Below are positions 4,511-24,448 of a stretch of DNA of 24,742 nt, piece by piece. The number at the start of each line of letters is the position of its first letter. Position 1 is the first letter of the stretch. The translations under genes were made by a program, and so were the position numbers. Under the pieces are notes generated by a model. That model worked only from the letters and a program-made list of their open reading frames with translations, had not been told where the DNA came from and did no database searches. Source of the DNA: a virus; the IMG/VR virus record IMGVR_UViG_3300031787_000792, positions 1 through 24,742 of that record, one strand, 5' to 3'.

Positions 4511-7500
4511 TAAGTGAGTTTTGACTGTGTGTATGTTAGTGATGCGGTCACGTGAAAAGTGTCCGGGAAGCCTGCGCCTGCTACCTGGTAGCCGATGCGG
4601 TGAAGGTTCGCGACTGCGACGTTCACGCCGAAGGTGAACACATACGCGCCGATGCCACCGATGACGTTCAAAGGTGTGAGAGCACTGACGGCTGCCACTC
4701 CTCCGCTCTTGATCATGGCGAAGCTCAGCACTCCGCTCTCATAGTTGCCGGTGAGGTTGTCGTCTTGTATCGTGTACGAGAGCAGACAATTCCAGCAGGT
4801 ATCGTCGGGCATGTCGATGTGCGAGTTCAGCACTCCATTGATGAAGAGAAACTGACCGCCTGCCGCTGCGAAGGTCTGCTTCGATTGCAGCATGATGACG
4901 CCACTCTGAGCATAGCCGTCGGGACTTGTTGCTGGTGTGTTGTTCATATAGCCACCTCCCAGATGCGTGCCGCTCTGCTTGGTGTATACGTTGCGACCGA
5001 ACATGCTCACGCCTCCGGTGCCTTCCATGATAGTCTTGTCACCGACAGCGATGCTGTAGGGGTTGTTCACGTCGAGTTTTATGTCAGAGCCAACAGCAAG
5101 CGAGTATACGTTCGTCGATGAGTTGTCAAGTCGCTCCGTCATCGTGATCGTGTTCAATGCGTTCGAGATCTCGCTTGCACTGCGTCCGACCTTCGTAGTA
5201 GCTGCGAGTGTGACGTTCTGCGGTGTAGTCGTGAAGCCGTAGCAGGTATTCGTGACGCTGTCCCAAAAGTAGCCGAAGCGCACACATGACTCTTCTGTCG
5301 ATGCGATAGGGTCGCCGTTCCCATCTACGAACTGGACGACACCGTTGTCGTCCACGTTGTCAGGCGTCTCGGTGCTCTCCGGCACTGCGTCGATGAGCTT
5401 GAGAAGTTTGACTTGAGTCACCTCTGCGCTGCCGACCTTGTAGTCGTTGATCTCGAGGATGCGCCACCACGAGTTCACTACCCAGATGCGATCGCTGAAC
5501 TTGAAGTTCAAGATGTCGCTCAGCTCGAGCGCAAAGTATGCCTCCATCAGTCGAGCTTGTGGGGAGTAGAGCTGATTCAGATAGTCACGCCAGTACTCGT
5601 TGAAGAGGTTTTTGTAAGGCGACGCGCCTATGATATACAGAGGCACTTCCGGTGCCCAGTTGAGATCGAGGTCGGTGAAGAAGGGTATGATGTTCTCGTA
5701 GTGATTCAGCACCGGGACGACATAAGCTGTGTCTGGAGTACCTACTTGGAAGTCGAAGAGCGTCATCTCATAGTCACCTGCATGGAAGAGACAGCGCATC
5801 TTCGGACTGATGAAGTTGCCATCGTTGTCTACGAACTTTGGAATGACCAGCGACGTGCCTCGAATATAGTTCGAAGGTGTCGACTGAGTGATGAGCTGAA
5901 TCTTCTGCTCGCTATCCTTCGCAAAGTCGTTCGGCACATCGTTCACGCTGACCGTAAAGTCCGCGAGCTTGTAGTCGCCATAGATTCGATTCAGTCCGGT
6001 GTAGATCTTCGAGCCTACGTCTTCGCCTGCCGAGTATGTGAACGTGAGGCGCTTCGTCTGGAAGTCGCTCGTGTTGCTGAGTGTGATGTCCTTCGAGATG
6101 TCGAGCTTCTCACTCCAGTCGCGATCGCTTCCACTGCCGACGTAGTTGCTGATAGGCTCAATGATGAGAGCATTCGGCAAGCTGCGGTCAGGCACGATGA
6201 CGCACGAGTGCATGTTGAATACATCGCGAAGGAAGTCGCCCTGCGTCATGTCCGGTGCATTCGCTGCCCAGTCAAGAGTGAGGCCGTCCATGAAATTAGC
6301 GTCGATCAGTTCGAGACCGGTGCCGCTATCGTATCCGCTGCCACCTTGCAAAGTAGCCGCAGTCGTCGCTTGATACATGAGTCGGAACTGATCACCTGCC
6401 GCTAAAAAGAACTGAGGAGCGCCGTTGACTGAGTCGAAGTTCACAGTGCTGCCAGTGATCTGCGAGGTGCCGAGCATAATATTCGCACCGCTCGTGATAT
6501 TGTTGAAGTATATGTTCACGCTACCTCCGAAGCCGGTAGACGTGAAAGTATACCAATAGCGAAAAGTATAGAGACCAGTAGCAGGTGCTGTGAAGACTGC
6601 CGAGGTGACTGTGTTGCCGTTGTCGAAGTCCTCGGTCACGTTAGTCACTGCGACAAGTGTCGGCGTCAAGGCTGTGGTCGTGTTGTTCCAGAAGCGAAAT
6701 ATAAAGCTCTGTACATTTTGAGTATATGCGAGCTGCTTGCTGTTGATCCAAGGTGCGTAGTACTTTACCAGTACGTTGTCGAGCGTCAAGCCGGTATATG
6801 TGAAACCTGCCTCCTCGATAATCTTCTCGAATATCCACTGCCAGTTGAGTGATGGCGTAAGGTCTCCGGCACGAGGTGCAAGGAAGGCTGAAGTCGAGTA
6901 GATGCTTCGCGTGCCCGGTGTTCCGCTCTCGTCCCACTTCTGACCATAGTCAGCGAGTGAATACAGATAAGGGTATCCAGTAGCAGCTACGACTTCCGCA
7001 TAGTTGAGCACTGCGTTGAGGTCAGCGAGTGCCGCGATGTCCTTGAGCTTCTTCCCTGCGATTGCATTGAAGAGGTCAGGGCTCTCCGCGTAGAACGTGA
7101 CCTCGAAGTCTGCGAGCTTGCCTGCCTGAGTGATCACGCGCATCACGCGTACGTATCCGATAGCTATCGGCAAGGTCTGCACTCGTAGCTCAGCGGGTAG
7201 CTTAGTCTGGAAGTAGTCGACGTCGGTCTTGAAGTTGACGTCGTTGAGATAGCCGAGCGCTTGCAGGTTGTTGTCGGTGCAAGGTATTCTGAATTGACGA
7301 CTGAATGAGCCCAGTGCAGCAAAGGTCTGAAGGTCTGAGAAGCGCCAGTTCTGACTGATAGTCTCGTTCTCATATAGTTCGAGGAAGCGCTTCTCGGTAG
7401 TGTCGACAAGTGTCTGAATGCGGAGCGAAGCAATCAATGGAATCGGTGACAGATTCGAAAAGTCGAGCCCTACGTCGGTCGTGATGTCACCGGTCAAAGG

Positions 7501-19003: not shown

Positions 19004-19555
19004 TTATAGAGTTTTGAGTTGTTTGATTTTTGTCTTGTATAGCTTGATCTGCTCCTGAATCTCCGGCACCGATAGCGAGAGCCGTCCGTTTTTCGCAGCA
19101 TGCAGTTCATCGTATGCCTTCAGTCCGATGCGCTCAACAAGTCGCTCACCGTACTCGATGAGGTTGCCGTGCTTGTGCTGATTGCAGGTCACACACTGGC
19201 CGAAGACATTCGCTTCGTTGAAGCGTAGGTTCGGATAGCTGCCGACGCTGAAATAGTGACCGGCGTCATACTTGCCCCTGAGAGGCTTGCCGCAACTTAT
19301 GCAGGTCAGCATCTTGTCGCGTTCGCGTATGTAGGCATTGAAGACCGTCTGAAGTTCTTTAAGGTACTCCTGGCGAGTCTTGAGCTTTTCGCGCATCTCC
19401 TGGATCTTGAGCCTGCTGTCCTTTGCCTTCATGGCCTTCGCATGTGCCAGCACACAGCTCACCTTCGTGCATGTGACCTGGAGTGTGCTGATGGTCGGTG
19501 AGAAGACCTGCTTGCAGATCTTGCACTTCCTATTTTTTACGTTCGTCAATTTCAT
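19004..19555 (-). CDS. ninG: NinG / Rap-like recombination protein (183 aa)
   Basis: The protein has two Cys-rich blocks as in lambda NinG. The N-terminal one is CKICKQVFSPT with two more Cys ~15-20 on. The second is CISCGKPLRGKYDAGHYFSVGSYPNLRF, then ANVFGQCVTCNQHKHGN. The YDAGHYF..G..P.LRF block and the C..CN motif are hallmarks of the NinG family. A coiled helix with many Lys lies between (residues ~40-80). In lambda the protein (Rap) resolves recombination joints as a Holliday-junction-type nuclease. Here it sits in the same operon as a putative annealing protein and exonuclease. A 51-aa gene overlaps its start by 26 bases. Confidence 0.85.
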   Translation of the reverse strand: MKLTNVKNRKCKICKQVFSPTISTLQVTCTKVSCVLAHAKAMKAKDSRLKIQEMREKLKTRQEYLKELQTVFNAYIRERDKMLTCISCGKPLRGKYDAGHYFSVGSYPNLRFNEANVFGQCVTCNQHKHGNLIEYGERLVERIGLKAYDELHAAKNGRLSLSVPEIQEQIKLYKTKIKQLKTL

Positions 19556-19910: not shown

Positions 19911-21278
19911 TTAAAAGGCCTCTATGGTTTGTATGGGTTGTTTGTTGAAGTCAGTGTATTGCATCACTTCGGCCTTGAAGCGCATCTTTGCGATACCAGT
20001 CGAGCCGTTGCGCTGCTTTGCCACGATGTACTCGCCGCTTCCGGTCAGATCGTTGCCGCTGTCGTCGCGTGTGATGCCGTAGTAGTCGGGACGGAAGAGG
20101 AAGACCACGACATCCGCATCTTGCTCCAGGCTTCCCGACTCGCGAAGGTCGGAGAGCATCGGCCTCTTAGTTGACCTTGCCTCGACTCCTCGCGATAGTT
20201 GAGACAGAGCCACTACCGGTATGTCGCACTCCTTGGCGACGAGCTTCAAGTTGCGACTGATCATGCTGATCTCTTGCTCTCGGTTCTGTCCCTTGTTGCG
20301 GAATTGACTGCCCAGTGTCATGAGCTGCACATAGTCGATGAACACGATGCCGACCTTGTGCTTCTCGACCATGGCCTTGACGCGTGTGCGTAGGTCGAAG
20401 ATAGAGACGCCTGCCGTGTCGTCGATGTATATCGGTAGTCTGTTGAGTCTGTCCTTTGTCATCTGGAAGAGTCGCATCTCATCTGTGTCGAGTCGGTACT
20501 TCATCACTTTCTGACCATCCAGGCCGCTCATCATGCTGATCATGCGAAGGATCACTTGAGCACTGGACATCTCGAGCGAGAAGAAGAGCACCGGCATGCC
20601 ACGCTGTGCCATGTTCAGCATCTCGCTGATCGCCATCGCAGTCTTGCCCATGCCCGGACGACCTGCCATGTACATGAGGTCTGTCTTCTGGTGTCCTCCG
20701 ATGAGCTTGTCGACGCACTCGATGCCTGACGACACACCACTTACGCCGCTCGCTTCCTTCTCTCGTGATATGACTGACTCTGCGACCTTCTCGGTCAGCT
20801 CGTTGACGTGTGCCACTGTGGTCTTCACGTTTGTCGAGAATACTTGCGTCATCTGACTACTGAAGCGGTCGAACATCTCGAACACATCAGCGCTCGGATC
20901 GTAGGCCAGCTCGTTCACCTGGGCACTGATGCGAGCGAACTCTCTCTTCATGTAGTGCTCGCTGAGCATGAGGCACCACTGCTCAAGATTGGCGGTCGAT
21001 GCCACTCGTGAGGTGAGTCCGGCTATGTACGCAGGCCCTCCGCACTGATCAAGCAGGCGCTCCTTCCGGATGTGCTGAGTGACCGTGAGAATGTCGATAG
21101 GCTTGTTGTGAAGGAAGAGCTGAGTCATAGCCTCGAAGATAGCCGTGTGCCGGCCATCGTAGAAGCGCTCTGCCGATAGGTGAGCGATGACTGAGGTCAT
21201 GGCCTTGCTCTCCATGAGCACAGCACCGAGCACCAGCTGCTCGAGTTCTATGTCGTTTGATGGTAGTCTTGAGATCAT
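19911..21278 (-). CDS. dnaB: Replicative DNA helicase, DnaB-like (455 aa)
   Basis: The N-terminal helical domain (LPSNDIELEQLVLGAVLMES, residues 5-24) and the RecA-like domain are both present. Walker A is GRPGMGKT (206-213), Walker B IVFIDYVQLM (311-320), and the later motif SQLSRGVEAR...M.DLRESG..EQDADVV matches DnaB. The C-terminal segment has FRPDYYG and the KQRNG loop. Length matches host DnaB (~450-470 aa). I use ATG 21278, which overlaps the initiator's stop (ATGA); a further ATG at 21308 would overlap more. It is a hexameric helicase that unwinds the fork, probably loaded by the initiator protein encoded just upstream. Confidence 0.95.
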   Translation of the reverse strand: MISRLPSNDIELEQLVLGAVLMESKAMTSVIAHLSAERFYDGRHTAIFEAMTQLFLHNKPIDILTVTQHIRKERLLDQCGGPAYIAGLTSRVASTANLEQWCLMLSEHYMKREFARISAQVNELAYDPSADVFEMFDRFSSQMTQVFSTNVKTTVAHVNELTEKVAESVISREKEASGVSGVSSGIECVDKLIGGHQKTDLMYMAGRPGMGKTAMAISEMLNMAQRGMPVLFFSLEMSSAQVILRMISMMSGLDGQKVMKYRLDTDEMRLFQMTKDRLNRLPIYIDDTAGVSIFDLRTRVKAMVEKHKVGIVFIDYVQLMTLGSQFRNKGQNREQEISMISRNLKLVAKECDIPVVALSQLSRGVEARSTKRPMLSDLRESGSLEQDADVVVFLFRPDYYGITRDDSGNDLTGSGEYIVAKQRNGSTGIAKMRFKAEVMQYTDFNKQPIQTIEAF

Positions 21279-21925
21279 ACTGGTCGATATTGGTCGATAG
21301 GTTGCCATACTGCCGGTACTTCGCCGATGGCTGGGTTGTAGTGTGAGCTGAGTACTTGTGCCTGAGGCTGTTTGTTCTCGTCTTTAAACCAGACGCCTCG
21401 CATCTTCTGCTTCCAGGCTCTCACCGGCTCGCCGCGTGAGTCCTTCCAGCCTGCCTCTGCATAGTAGTGGTAGGCCTTGACTGCGATATCTCGAGTGTAT
21501 CCGTTCTCAGTGAAGAAAGTGATCACCTCGTCGAGTGATGGATAGGCAGTACTCTTATCCTTTACATTAACACTATCATTTACATTAACACTTACATTTA
21601 CACTACCGCTACGTTTGCTATCGTTTGCTACCTCTTGCTTGCTTTTGCTACCTTTTGCTACCTTTTGCTTGCTATTGGTAGCTTTAGCTTGTCCGCCTTT
21701 ACTGCCTTGAGTTCTACGTATGTCGGCTATGCGTTCCCACTTCTCAGCATCACGCGTCCACTGATTTATGAAGGGAAGCAGTATGCACTTGAGAAGTACA
21801 TCTTCTGGCTGTTCACCAGTCTCGTGATAGGTTGCCATAGCTTTGAACAGCTTACCGGCTTGCTCATCACTCAGAGCGTCGAGAACAGCGAGACTATCTC
21901 GGTGTAATAGGAAGGAGTTTTTCAT
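21275..21925 (-). CDS. Replication initiator / helicase-loader-like protein (216 aa)
   Basis: Residues 1-~75 (KNSFLLHRDSLAVLDALSDEQAGKLFKAMATYHETG.QPE, then FINQWTRDAEKWER) match the DUF6291-type N-terminal domain of phage replication proteins. A Ser/Lys/Gln/Val linker (76-125) is coded by repetitive DNA (see iterons and A/T-rich block). The C-terminal domain (YPSLDEVITFFTENGYTRDIAVKAYHYYAEAGWKD..G.PVRAWKQKM..VW, ~128-180) is the common phage initiator or loader tail. ATG 21925 is used; an upstream TTG frame would begin in the hairpin region. It is followed by DnaB, as in lambda O/P-type modules. It likely binds the origin inside its own gene. Confidence 0.78.
   Translation of the reverse strand: MKNSFLLHRDSLAVLDALSDEQAGKLFKAMATYHETGEQPEDVLLKCILLPFINQWTRDAEKWERIADIRRTQGSKGGQAKATNSKQKVAKGSKSKQEVANDSKRSGSVNVSVNVNDSVNVKDKSTAYPSLDEVITFFTENGYTRDIAVKAYHYYAEAGWKDSRGEPVRAWKQKMRGVWFKDENKQPQAQVLSSHYNPAIGEVPAVWQPIDQYRPV
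21555..21604. other. A/T-rich direct repeats, possible DNA unwinding element
   Basis: TTTACATTAACACT occurs at 21561-21574 and 21579-21592 (18-bp spacing), followed by a degenerate third unit (TTACATTTACACT, 21592-21604). The segment is much more A/T-rich than the surrounding gene and lies next to the 10-bp iterons. It encodes the VNVSVNVNDSVNVK part of the initiator linker. Confidence 0.5.
21611..21690. repeat. Iteron-like 10-bp tandem array, candidate replication origin
   Basis: Eight consecutive 10-base units: ACGTTTGCTA, TCGTTTGCTA, CCTCTTGCTT, GCTTTTGCTA, CCTTTTGCTA, CCTTTTGCTT, GCTATTGGTA, GCTTTAGCTT. The period is one helical turn. It lies inside the replication initiator gene, next to an A/T-rich repeat block, as the lambda origin lies inside gene O. 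A 10-base period is not a multiple of three, so it is not explained by protein coding alone. At protein level it appears as a 10-residue repeat, SKQKVAKGSK / SKQEVANDSK. Confidence 0.68.
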
Positions 21926-22038: not shown

Positions 22039-22791
22039 TCAACGTCCGCGTGCATTCAGCACAGACTTTTGAACATTACCTGCCCACTCTTGAACATATT
22101 GCTGCTTGATAGCCTCAGCCTTCTCCATTCGCTCGCAAAGGAGCTGAAGTGCTTCGATGTCGGCCTCAATACGTGCATAGTGAAGACGTCGGTGCTCCGG
22201 CTGACGAGGGTCATAGCTGGCAAAGTAGGCCGCTGTGGTCTGATGCACGAGCATGTTCATCTGCACCTGCCAGTAGTACTCGTCATTCTCCTTCTTCAGA
22301 CTCTCGCCATCGGTCACTCGCGTGTGATAGAAGTGTGTGACGCTGTTGTATGGGCACTTCATCTCGACGATCAGCAGAGGATCCATCTCGCGGTCGTATA
22401 TGATCGCATCCGATGAGCATCCGGCGTAGTCGTTCCAGAGCTTGAAGGCAGGCTTCATGACCATACGCACCTCGCCGCCAGTGTCGTGCTCTAGCTGCTT
22501 GTGCAGTTCGTTTAGTGCGTGCTCTTCCCACTCGTTGCCCCAGTCGATAGCACGACCGAAGGCGTGATCGTGTGATTCACCAGTGATGATCTCCATGGCC
22601 TTTTCGATGACATAGCGCTCACCTGCTACTGATAGCTTTCCTGCTTCGCGGTCGGCCTTGCTTCGAGGCTCACTCATGAGGTCGACGATAGTGCTCGCGG
22701 TGAACTTGCCGAGGCGCATTTTTTCCCATGCTTCTGACTGTTGTCTGACTCCTTGCGCGTGCTGGAGGACGTCGGCTGTATACTTATTCAT
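22039..22791 (-). CDS. YqaJ-type / lambda-exonuclease-like recombination nuclease (250 aa)
   Basis: The protein has the YqaJ fold signature: RLGKFTAST near residue 26, E89/E90 in WGNEWEEHA, the catalytic core CSSDAIIYD (D128), then LLIVEMKCPY with E143 and K145, and YYWQVQMNM with Q175. Those D, ExK and Q residues form the metal-binding nuclease centre. The enzyme digests double-stranded ends 5'-3' to give 3' overhangs for the annealing protein. It starts (ATG 22791) inside the last 8 bases of the putative annealing protein gene, a typical synexo pair. Length (250 aa) is normal, and the C-terminal helix is Glu/Lys/Gln-rich. Confidence 0.88.
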   Translation of the reverse strand: MNKYTADVLQHAQGVRQQSEAWEKMRLGKFTASTIVDLMSEPRSKADREAGKLSVAGERYVIEKAMEIITGESHDHAFGRAIDWGNEWEEHALNELHKQLEHDTGGEVRMVMKPAFKLWNDYAGCSSDAIIYDREMDPLLIVEMKCPYNSVTHFYHTRVTDGESLKKENDEYYWQVQMNMLVHQTTAAYFASYDPRQPEHRRLHYARIEADIEALQLLCERMEKAEAIKQQYVQEWAGNVQKSVLNARGR

Positions 22792-24334: not shown

Positions 24335-24364
24335 CAAATATATGTGGTTTTTTTGCTACATCAA
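24335..24364 (-). promoter_or_regulatory. Early operon promoter (Bacteroidota type)
   Basis: On the minus strand the -7 box is TATATTTG (exact TAnnTTTG, 24335-24342). A TTG at 24362-24364 (ATTG against consensus TTTG) stands 19 bases upstream, the expected -33 spacing. Predicted transcript start is near 24328, about 20 bases ahead of the first early gene at 24307. The spacer is A/T-rich. This is the best promoter match in the window. Confidence 0.68.
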
Positions 24365-24448
24365 TAGACAAAAATCATGTAAGTATTAACACGACGCGGT
24401 TAACATCGTGCAATACACTGAAGATTAAGGTGTTGAGGTGTTGAAAAG

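Follow-up and report, generated by a model that had tools for sequence, protein, structure and literature searches.

The window, which is the whole stretch of 24,742 nucleotides analysed here, comes from a 24.7-kb virus record (IMGVR_UViG_3300031787_000792) and carries its replication module on the minus strand (Table 1). At the centre of this module lies the gene of a DUF6291 protein, whose match to the family profile scores 56.4 bits against a curated cut-off of 27.2, covers residues 4-81 and spans the full profile. The longest open reading frame would begin at a TTG at 22042, a start we reject because the PF19808 match begins at the ATG at 21925. The 3' end of this initiator gene is overlapped by the gene that follows it, a DnaB helicase; the gene order is the one proposed in an initial annotation made from the sequence alone. 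Elsewhere in the window we note a sigma-factor-like protein encoded by the phage (15076-15648; phrog_1740, E 1.2e-10) and a non-coding low-GC segment upstream of the replication module (24338-24440), which is likely its promoter region. A Bacteroidota host is plausible for this phage, and relatives of the gene are carried by a Spirosoma plasmid and by Flavobacterium phages.

Table 1. Features of the replication module discussed in the text, in window coordinates.
Feature	Position	Strand	Evidence
NinG recombination protein gene, downstream in the module	19004..19555	-	PF05766, E 1.5e-47
DnaB-type replicative helicase gene, next downstream of the initiator gene	19911..21308	-	PF03796, E 6e-88; PF00772; phrog_19
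Initiator gene, 216 aa: PF19808 (DUF6291) N-domain and conserved C-terminal domain	21275..21925	-	Pfam, E 3.5e-15; ORF; AlphaFold
C-terminal domain, residues 129-183, contains RAWKQKMRGVWF (..NWKQKMRGVWF..)	21377..21541	-	High-pLDDT block 131-180
A/T-rich 6/18-bp in-frame repeats, 24% GC	21555..21604	-	Tandem Repeats Finder; low GC next to array in relatives
Iteron array, eight units of about 10 bp, core (T)AGCAAA, all three codon phases	21610..21689	-	Repeats; shuffles; relatives
N-terminal domain, residues 1-84, candidate iteron-binding domain	21674..21925	-	AlphaFold helices 9-17, 20-36, 43-84; covariation with iteron word
YqaJ-type recombination exonuclease gene, upstream in the module	22039..22791	-	PF09588, E 6e-13

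About 230-320 bp inside the initiator gene, downstream of its start, lies the strongest tandem array that Tandem Repeats Finder reports in the window (period 10 at 21614-21669, score 77; period 30 at 21614-21677, score 100). The eight back-to-back 10-bp units described initially are indeed present, although their coordinates, given as 21611-21690, were one base off. On the coding strand the units resemble TAGCAAAAGG, with five exact copies of AGCAAA at spacings of 10, 10, 20 and 10 bp; the 20-bp gap holds one AGCAAG, and the flanking units are degenerate. Does the peptide account for this register? When the gene is compared with itself at a shift of 10, the match is 36, against 10.3 +/- 4.3 (maximum 29) in 2000 synonymous-codon shuffles (p = 0.0005), and shuffles of codon order in the linker never exceed 12 at the same shift. 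Since the observed value lies above both, the peptide does not account for the 10-bp register, as had been argued initially from the mismatch between a 10-bp period and the codons.

Beside the array, the A/T-rich 18-bp repeats noticed at the outset are real (21556-21602, score 73) and run in frame through VNVNDS-type codons. The GC content of the 50 bp listed in Table 1 compares with 53% for the window, and is reached by just 12 of 24692 50-bp windows. A similar step is seen in relatives, where the 60 bp past the array have 28-32% GC against 38-39% for the gene and are lower than the gene in 93-94% of cases. We considered these repeats as a second set of iterons and rejected the idea because relatives swap them for other in-frame hexamers (GATAGT, GAGAAG, GTNAAT). 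They look like melting and linker DNA, and we propose that 21555-21604 serves both as a DNA-unwinding element and as the code for a flexible linker.

The AlphaFold model of the protein has a helical folded N-domain, a linker and a folded C-domain, which bears out the placement of the array in the linker-coding part of the gene. Confidence falls from about residue 80, and at residues 94-123, where pLDDT is below 50, the linker is predicted to be disordered; its start is encoded by the array and its remainder by the A/T repeats. The N-domain ends in the tail IRRTQGSKGG, which includes residues that co-vary with iteron type. PDB searches by sequence and by structure gave no match to its fold, so the case for DNA binding by this domain is made by covariation, and the domain, having no known structural relative, may be a DNA-binding fold that has yet to be described. 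Among the neighbours of the predicted structure in BFVD, the nearest viral ones are DUF6291 proteins, and the next include entries named Replisome organizer and Replication initiator. The C-terminal domain is common to genes with unrelated N-domains, while other relatives carry a replacement for it; we propose that it contacts the helicase or its loader and is exchangeable between relatives.

If the register matters as DNA, it should be visible beyond the window. We gathered relatives from IMG/VR with alignments of the whole protein, the N-domain and the C-domain, added named phages, and obtained 120 non-redundant genes. The significant shifts in these genes fall at 10 bp (46%), 20 bp (33%) and 29 bp (14%), with 7% at 11, 19 and 22 bp, and the remaining out-of-frame shifts are significant in 1-5%; among 279 control reading frames from the same loci, 0.7% are significant at 10 bp. 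Only 57% of the DUF6291-type genes are significant at 10, 11, 20 or 22 bp, because the arrays are short. Moreover, at residues shared between two genes the array codons are identical at a rate of 0.93, against a residue-matched expectation of 0.60 elsewhere in the same pair. Codon identity is higher in the array for 98% of 570 pairs; because common descent makes the pairs non-independent, it is the size of the difference, rather than their number, that serves as evidence. The initial annotation would have been contradicted by homologues that keep the amino-acid repeat and lose the 10-bp register, and what we find is the reverse: the peptide and the frame change, the DNA words stay and the synonymous sites are frozen.

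The frame changes are particularly telling. A 13-nt inverted repeat near AACCCAGTGGGTT is conserved while its translation moves from NPVG (18 genes) to (K/E)PSG (8 genes) to TQSV-like peptides (9 genes). The words themselves occur in every frame, AGCAAA 64/36/38 times, spaced mainly by 10 and 20 bp, and AACCCA 62/46/36 times. A T before AGCAA[AG] is found in 0 of 55 cases in the phase where it would create the stop codon TAG, against 89 of 122 elsewhere, and the window array obeys the same rule, with TAGCAAA in two phases and AAGCAA[A/G] in the third, in which TAG would end translation. A word kept across frames, a core used in all three of them and the avoidance of stops leave an explanation in terms of peptide little room, and the 120-gene comparison shows an array that is selected as DNA and not as protein. 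As a stand-alone search word, the 14-mer AAACCCAGTGGGTT performs poorly, with 5 of its 83 occurrences on viral contigs inside DUF6291 genes; the word alone is therefore no marker, and the marker is an array within the gene.

These comparisons also bear on two other accounts of the repeats. One is that they are neutral products of slippage or duplication in a part of the gene that codes for a tolerant linker. The predicted disorder of the linker would permit this, and the adjoining 6-bp in-frame repeats do resemble slippage products. Slippage, however, accounts neither for a word that stays constant across frames and across phages of different hosts nor for its tracking of the N-domain (see below), and the restriction of the periods to roughly one or two turns of the helix, together with the frozen codons, contradicts neutrality so strongly that we consider it hardly credible. 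The other account places the function in the transcript, where the element might be a structured RNA or a site for a protein. This would suit the arrays, all of which occupy the coding strand of the same gene. RNA structure is nevertheless not in excess (z -0.86), the array has no Rfam match, and inverted copies (AACCCAGTGGGTT) and spacings of 10 or 11 bp suit duplex DNA, so that a role in RNA seems very improbable.

Which part of the protein, then, goes with the word? The question can be asked because DUF6291 N-domains are paired with many C-terminal clusters and the C-terminal domain is paired with different N-domains. When each gene is compared with its nearest N-domain neighbour from another C-terminal cluster, the word agrees in 70 of 83 comparisons (mean 34 and maximum 48 under permutation); the nearest C-domain neighbour with a dissimilar N-domain shares it in 29 of 81, for a chance value of 33. 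Judged by these comparisons, the iteron word is a companion of the N-domain and not of the C-terminal domain. The correspondence can be followed to the end of the N-domain: with motif classes chosen after inspection of the data, the tail RRxxAG-KGG goes with AGCAAA (26 genes), RNxxNG-KGGRP with AACCCA (37 genes) and KNRLIA with ACCAAA-like words (7 genes), no discordant combination occurs among the 70 genes with both calls, and a few further genes are without assignment. The tails precede the array and are therefore not encoded by it.

Covariation of this kind establishes linkage rather than contact, and another protein of the phage or the host could in principle bind the array, provided that its gene travels with the N-domain. 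The linkage, however, lies inside a single gene and holds across phage backgrounds and C-terminal domains, which makes a separate binding protein quite improbable.

We note some variants within the family. Three loci (L323:2001-2900, L020:2009-2743 and L015:3989-4615; Riemerella phage RAP44, Flavobacterium elemo and Muminvirus) seem to share a word near TCGCATA/TATGCGA, and the N-domain tail contains KRW or DRW in the RAP44 and Muminvirus genes. A DUF6291 subgroup marked by MRDSFIIYRSFYEA (L012, L013, L014 and L053) has 11-bp spacing, AAGCAAAACAG, where most DUF6291 genes have 10 bp.

In the window, in Aeromonas phiA005 and in Vibrio 1.265.O the DUF6291 gene is followed by DnaB; Flavobacterium phages have a primase gene at this position, and Vibrio phage 199E37-1 has a gene for a putative replication protein P. 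At one locus (L045:3001-4905) initiator and DnaB helicase are encoded by one uninterrupted frame of 635 aa, through either a natural fusion or the loss of a stop codon, which is consistent with joint action of the two proteins. Cultured phages with the family include Flavobacterium Lillamyvirus and Muminvirus, Shewanella phage ZP9 and Aeromonas phiA005. The family is also found on a circular 17-kb Spirosoma plasmid, where AACCCA stands at 6213, 6223, 6243, 6253 and 6263, with an inverted copy, in an unannotated DUF6291 frame; since the plasmid holds phage genes, including terminase and ERF, it is probably a phage-plasmid.

Comparable binding-site arrays also serve autoregulation in plasmids, and the array might accordingly be an operator through which the initiator or another regulator controls transcription of the replication operon instead of the start of replication. 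A weak promoter-like match on the plus strand at 21597-21624, near the expectation from shuffles, would fit such a role. Against it stand the position of the array, deep within the gene past its start, beside a low-GC stretch and ahead of a helicase gene, and the fact that the location is the same whatever the N-domain. We regard an operator as unlikely, though an additional regulatory role is compatible with all of these observations.

Our preferred reading, to which we assign a probability of roughly 0.85, is that 21541-21690 is a replication origin placed in the linker of its own initiator, with the DUF6291 N-domain binding one-turn iterons, the A/T repeats melting and the C-domain bringing DnaB. 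The array, the selection on DNA, the linkage to the N-domain, the adjoining low-GC stretch and the helicase gene are seen in the data; that the initiator binds the array, that the DNA melts, that the helicase is contacted and that the origin fires is what we infer. Taken together, the array, the linkage, the layout, the plasmid carrier and the positive control provided by lambda (see below) are best explained by an in-gene origin to which the N-domain binds, and the initial interpretation is thus supported overall.

How might such an origin work? We suppose that the DUF6291 N-domain would bind short iterons with the core TAGCAAA, one per helical turn, so that several initiator molecules would align on one face of the DNA. 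The aligned initiators could then stress the adjoining A/T-rich repeats until they melt. The disordered linker, which the origin itself encodes, would tether the C-terminal domain as it recruits the DnaB made from the next gene.

The initial annotation had likened the locus to the lambda O gene, in which iterons and an A/T-rich tract lie mid-gene (PMC7466680). The O gene is positive in the periodicity test applied here, with iterons in three codon phases, and the layout is shared: an array between two folded domains, an A/T-rich tract adjoining it and a replication gene next. A Pfam scan of the window protein at E up to 0.1 reported DUF6291 and no replication O family; lambda has four 18-bp iterons every 20-24 bp where the window has about eight 10-bp units; and the next gene encodes the loader P in lambda and the DnaB helicase itself in the window. 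A second parallel is the RepA_N plasmid pSK41, whose origin is central in rep and is bound by the N-domain, the protein region encoded by the origin being a dispensable linker and the C-domain contacting the replication machinery; in the chimera pPR9 the N-domain and the origin were replaced together and the C-domain was kept (PMC5703833). The in-gene layout and the pattern of exchange are the same in our family, with the array in the place of a candidate origin. In contrast to the phage studied here, RepA_N plasmids are staphylococcal, have four Rep boxes of another type and use a winged-helix RepA_N domain, for which the window protein gave no PF06970 match at E up to 0.1 and no PDB structure match. 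The arrangement is thus a variant of known in-gene origins, and a new one, with a specificity code that can be tested.

GC skew, which had been suggested as a check, is uninformative in the window, where it has no extremum at the array. In four complete phages the skew minimum lies 0.061, 0.014, 0.165 and 0.128 genome lengths away, which is suggestive at best with gene strand as a confounder, and in the Spirosoma plasmid the minimum is far from the array. We therefore do not count skew in favour of the origin.

How general is the arrangement? Lin1244_N (PF14297) and DUF1376-like (PF07120) proteins have the C-terminal domain and the linker design in common with the window protein, and their N-domains are unrelated to it. 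Among 13 non-redundant Lin1244_N genes, 69% are significant at 10 bp, a signal due in part to A-rich stretches, and 54% at 21 bp, which comes from AACAAGTGTTGAACA-type repeats; among 28 DUF1376-like genes the figures are 39% at 11 bp, 18% at 22 bp and 0% at 10 bp, with some few hits falling in the N-domain rather than the linker. With 10 bp for DUF6291, about 21 bp for Lin1244_N and 11 bp for DUF1376, the period therefore seems to be characteristic of each N-domain family. Further afield, a scan of genome contigs gave a sole match, which is distantly related, lies in a Clostridia MAG and has an array of CGACCGCATC with a period of 10 bp; in a survey of Bacillota, 4 of 398 genomes had a member of the family, and these genes carry no weight here because several gene extractions were poor.

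More generally, we lean towards the view that one-turn in-gene iterons are widespread among tailed-phage initiators, that each N-domain family (DUF6291, DUF1376-like, Lin1244_N) sets the word and the helical period, that N-domain and origin form one cassette combined with various C-terminal domains, and that a few tail residues of the N-domain are enough to predict the word. The family descriptions list DUF6291 and DUF1376 as of unknown function and Lin1244_N as an N-terminal region only. In the open-licence literature, which leaves most subscription journals outside, we found nothing on DUF6291 as an initiator or on an origin or iterons in DUF6291, Lin1244_N or DUF1376 genes.

If our reading holds, families now listed as of unknown function would gain both a function and a DNA target, and the probable origin could be located by sequence alone in many uncultured phages. 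The locus would also illustrate how one stretch of DNA can serve as coding frame and binding array at once, by frame switching, avoidance of stop codons and frozen codons. Finally, the correspondence between tail residues and iterons would amount to a specificity code open to direct test.
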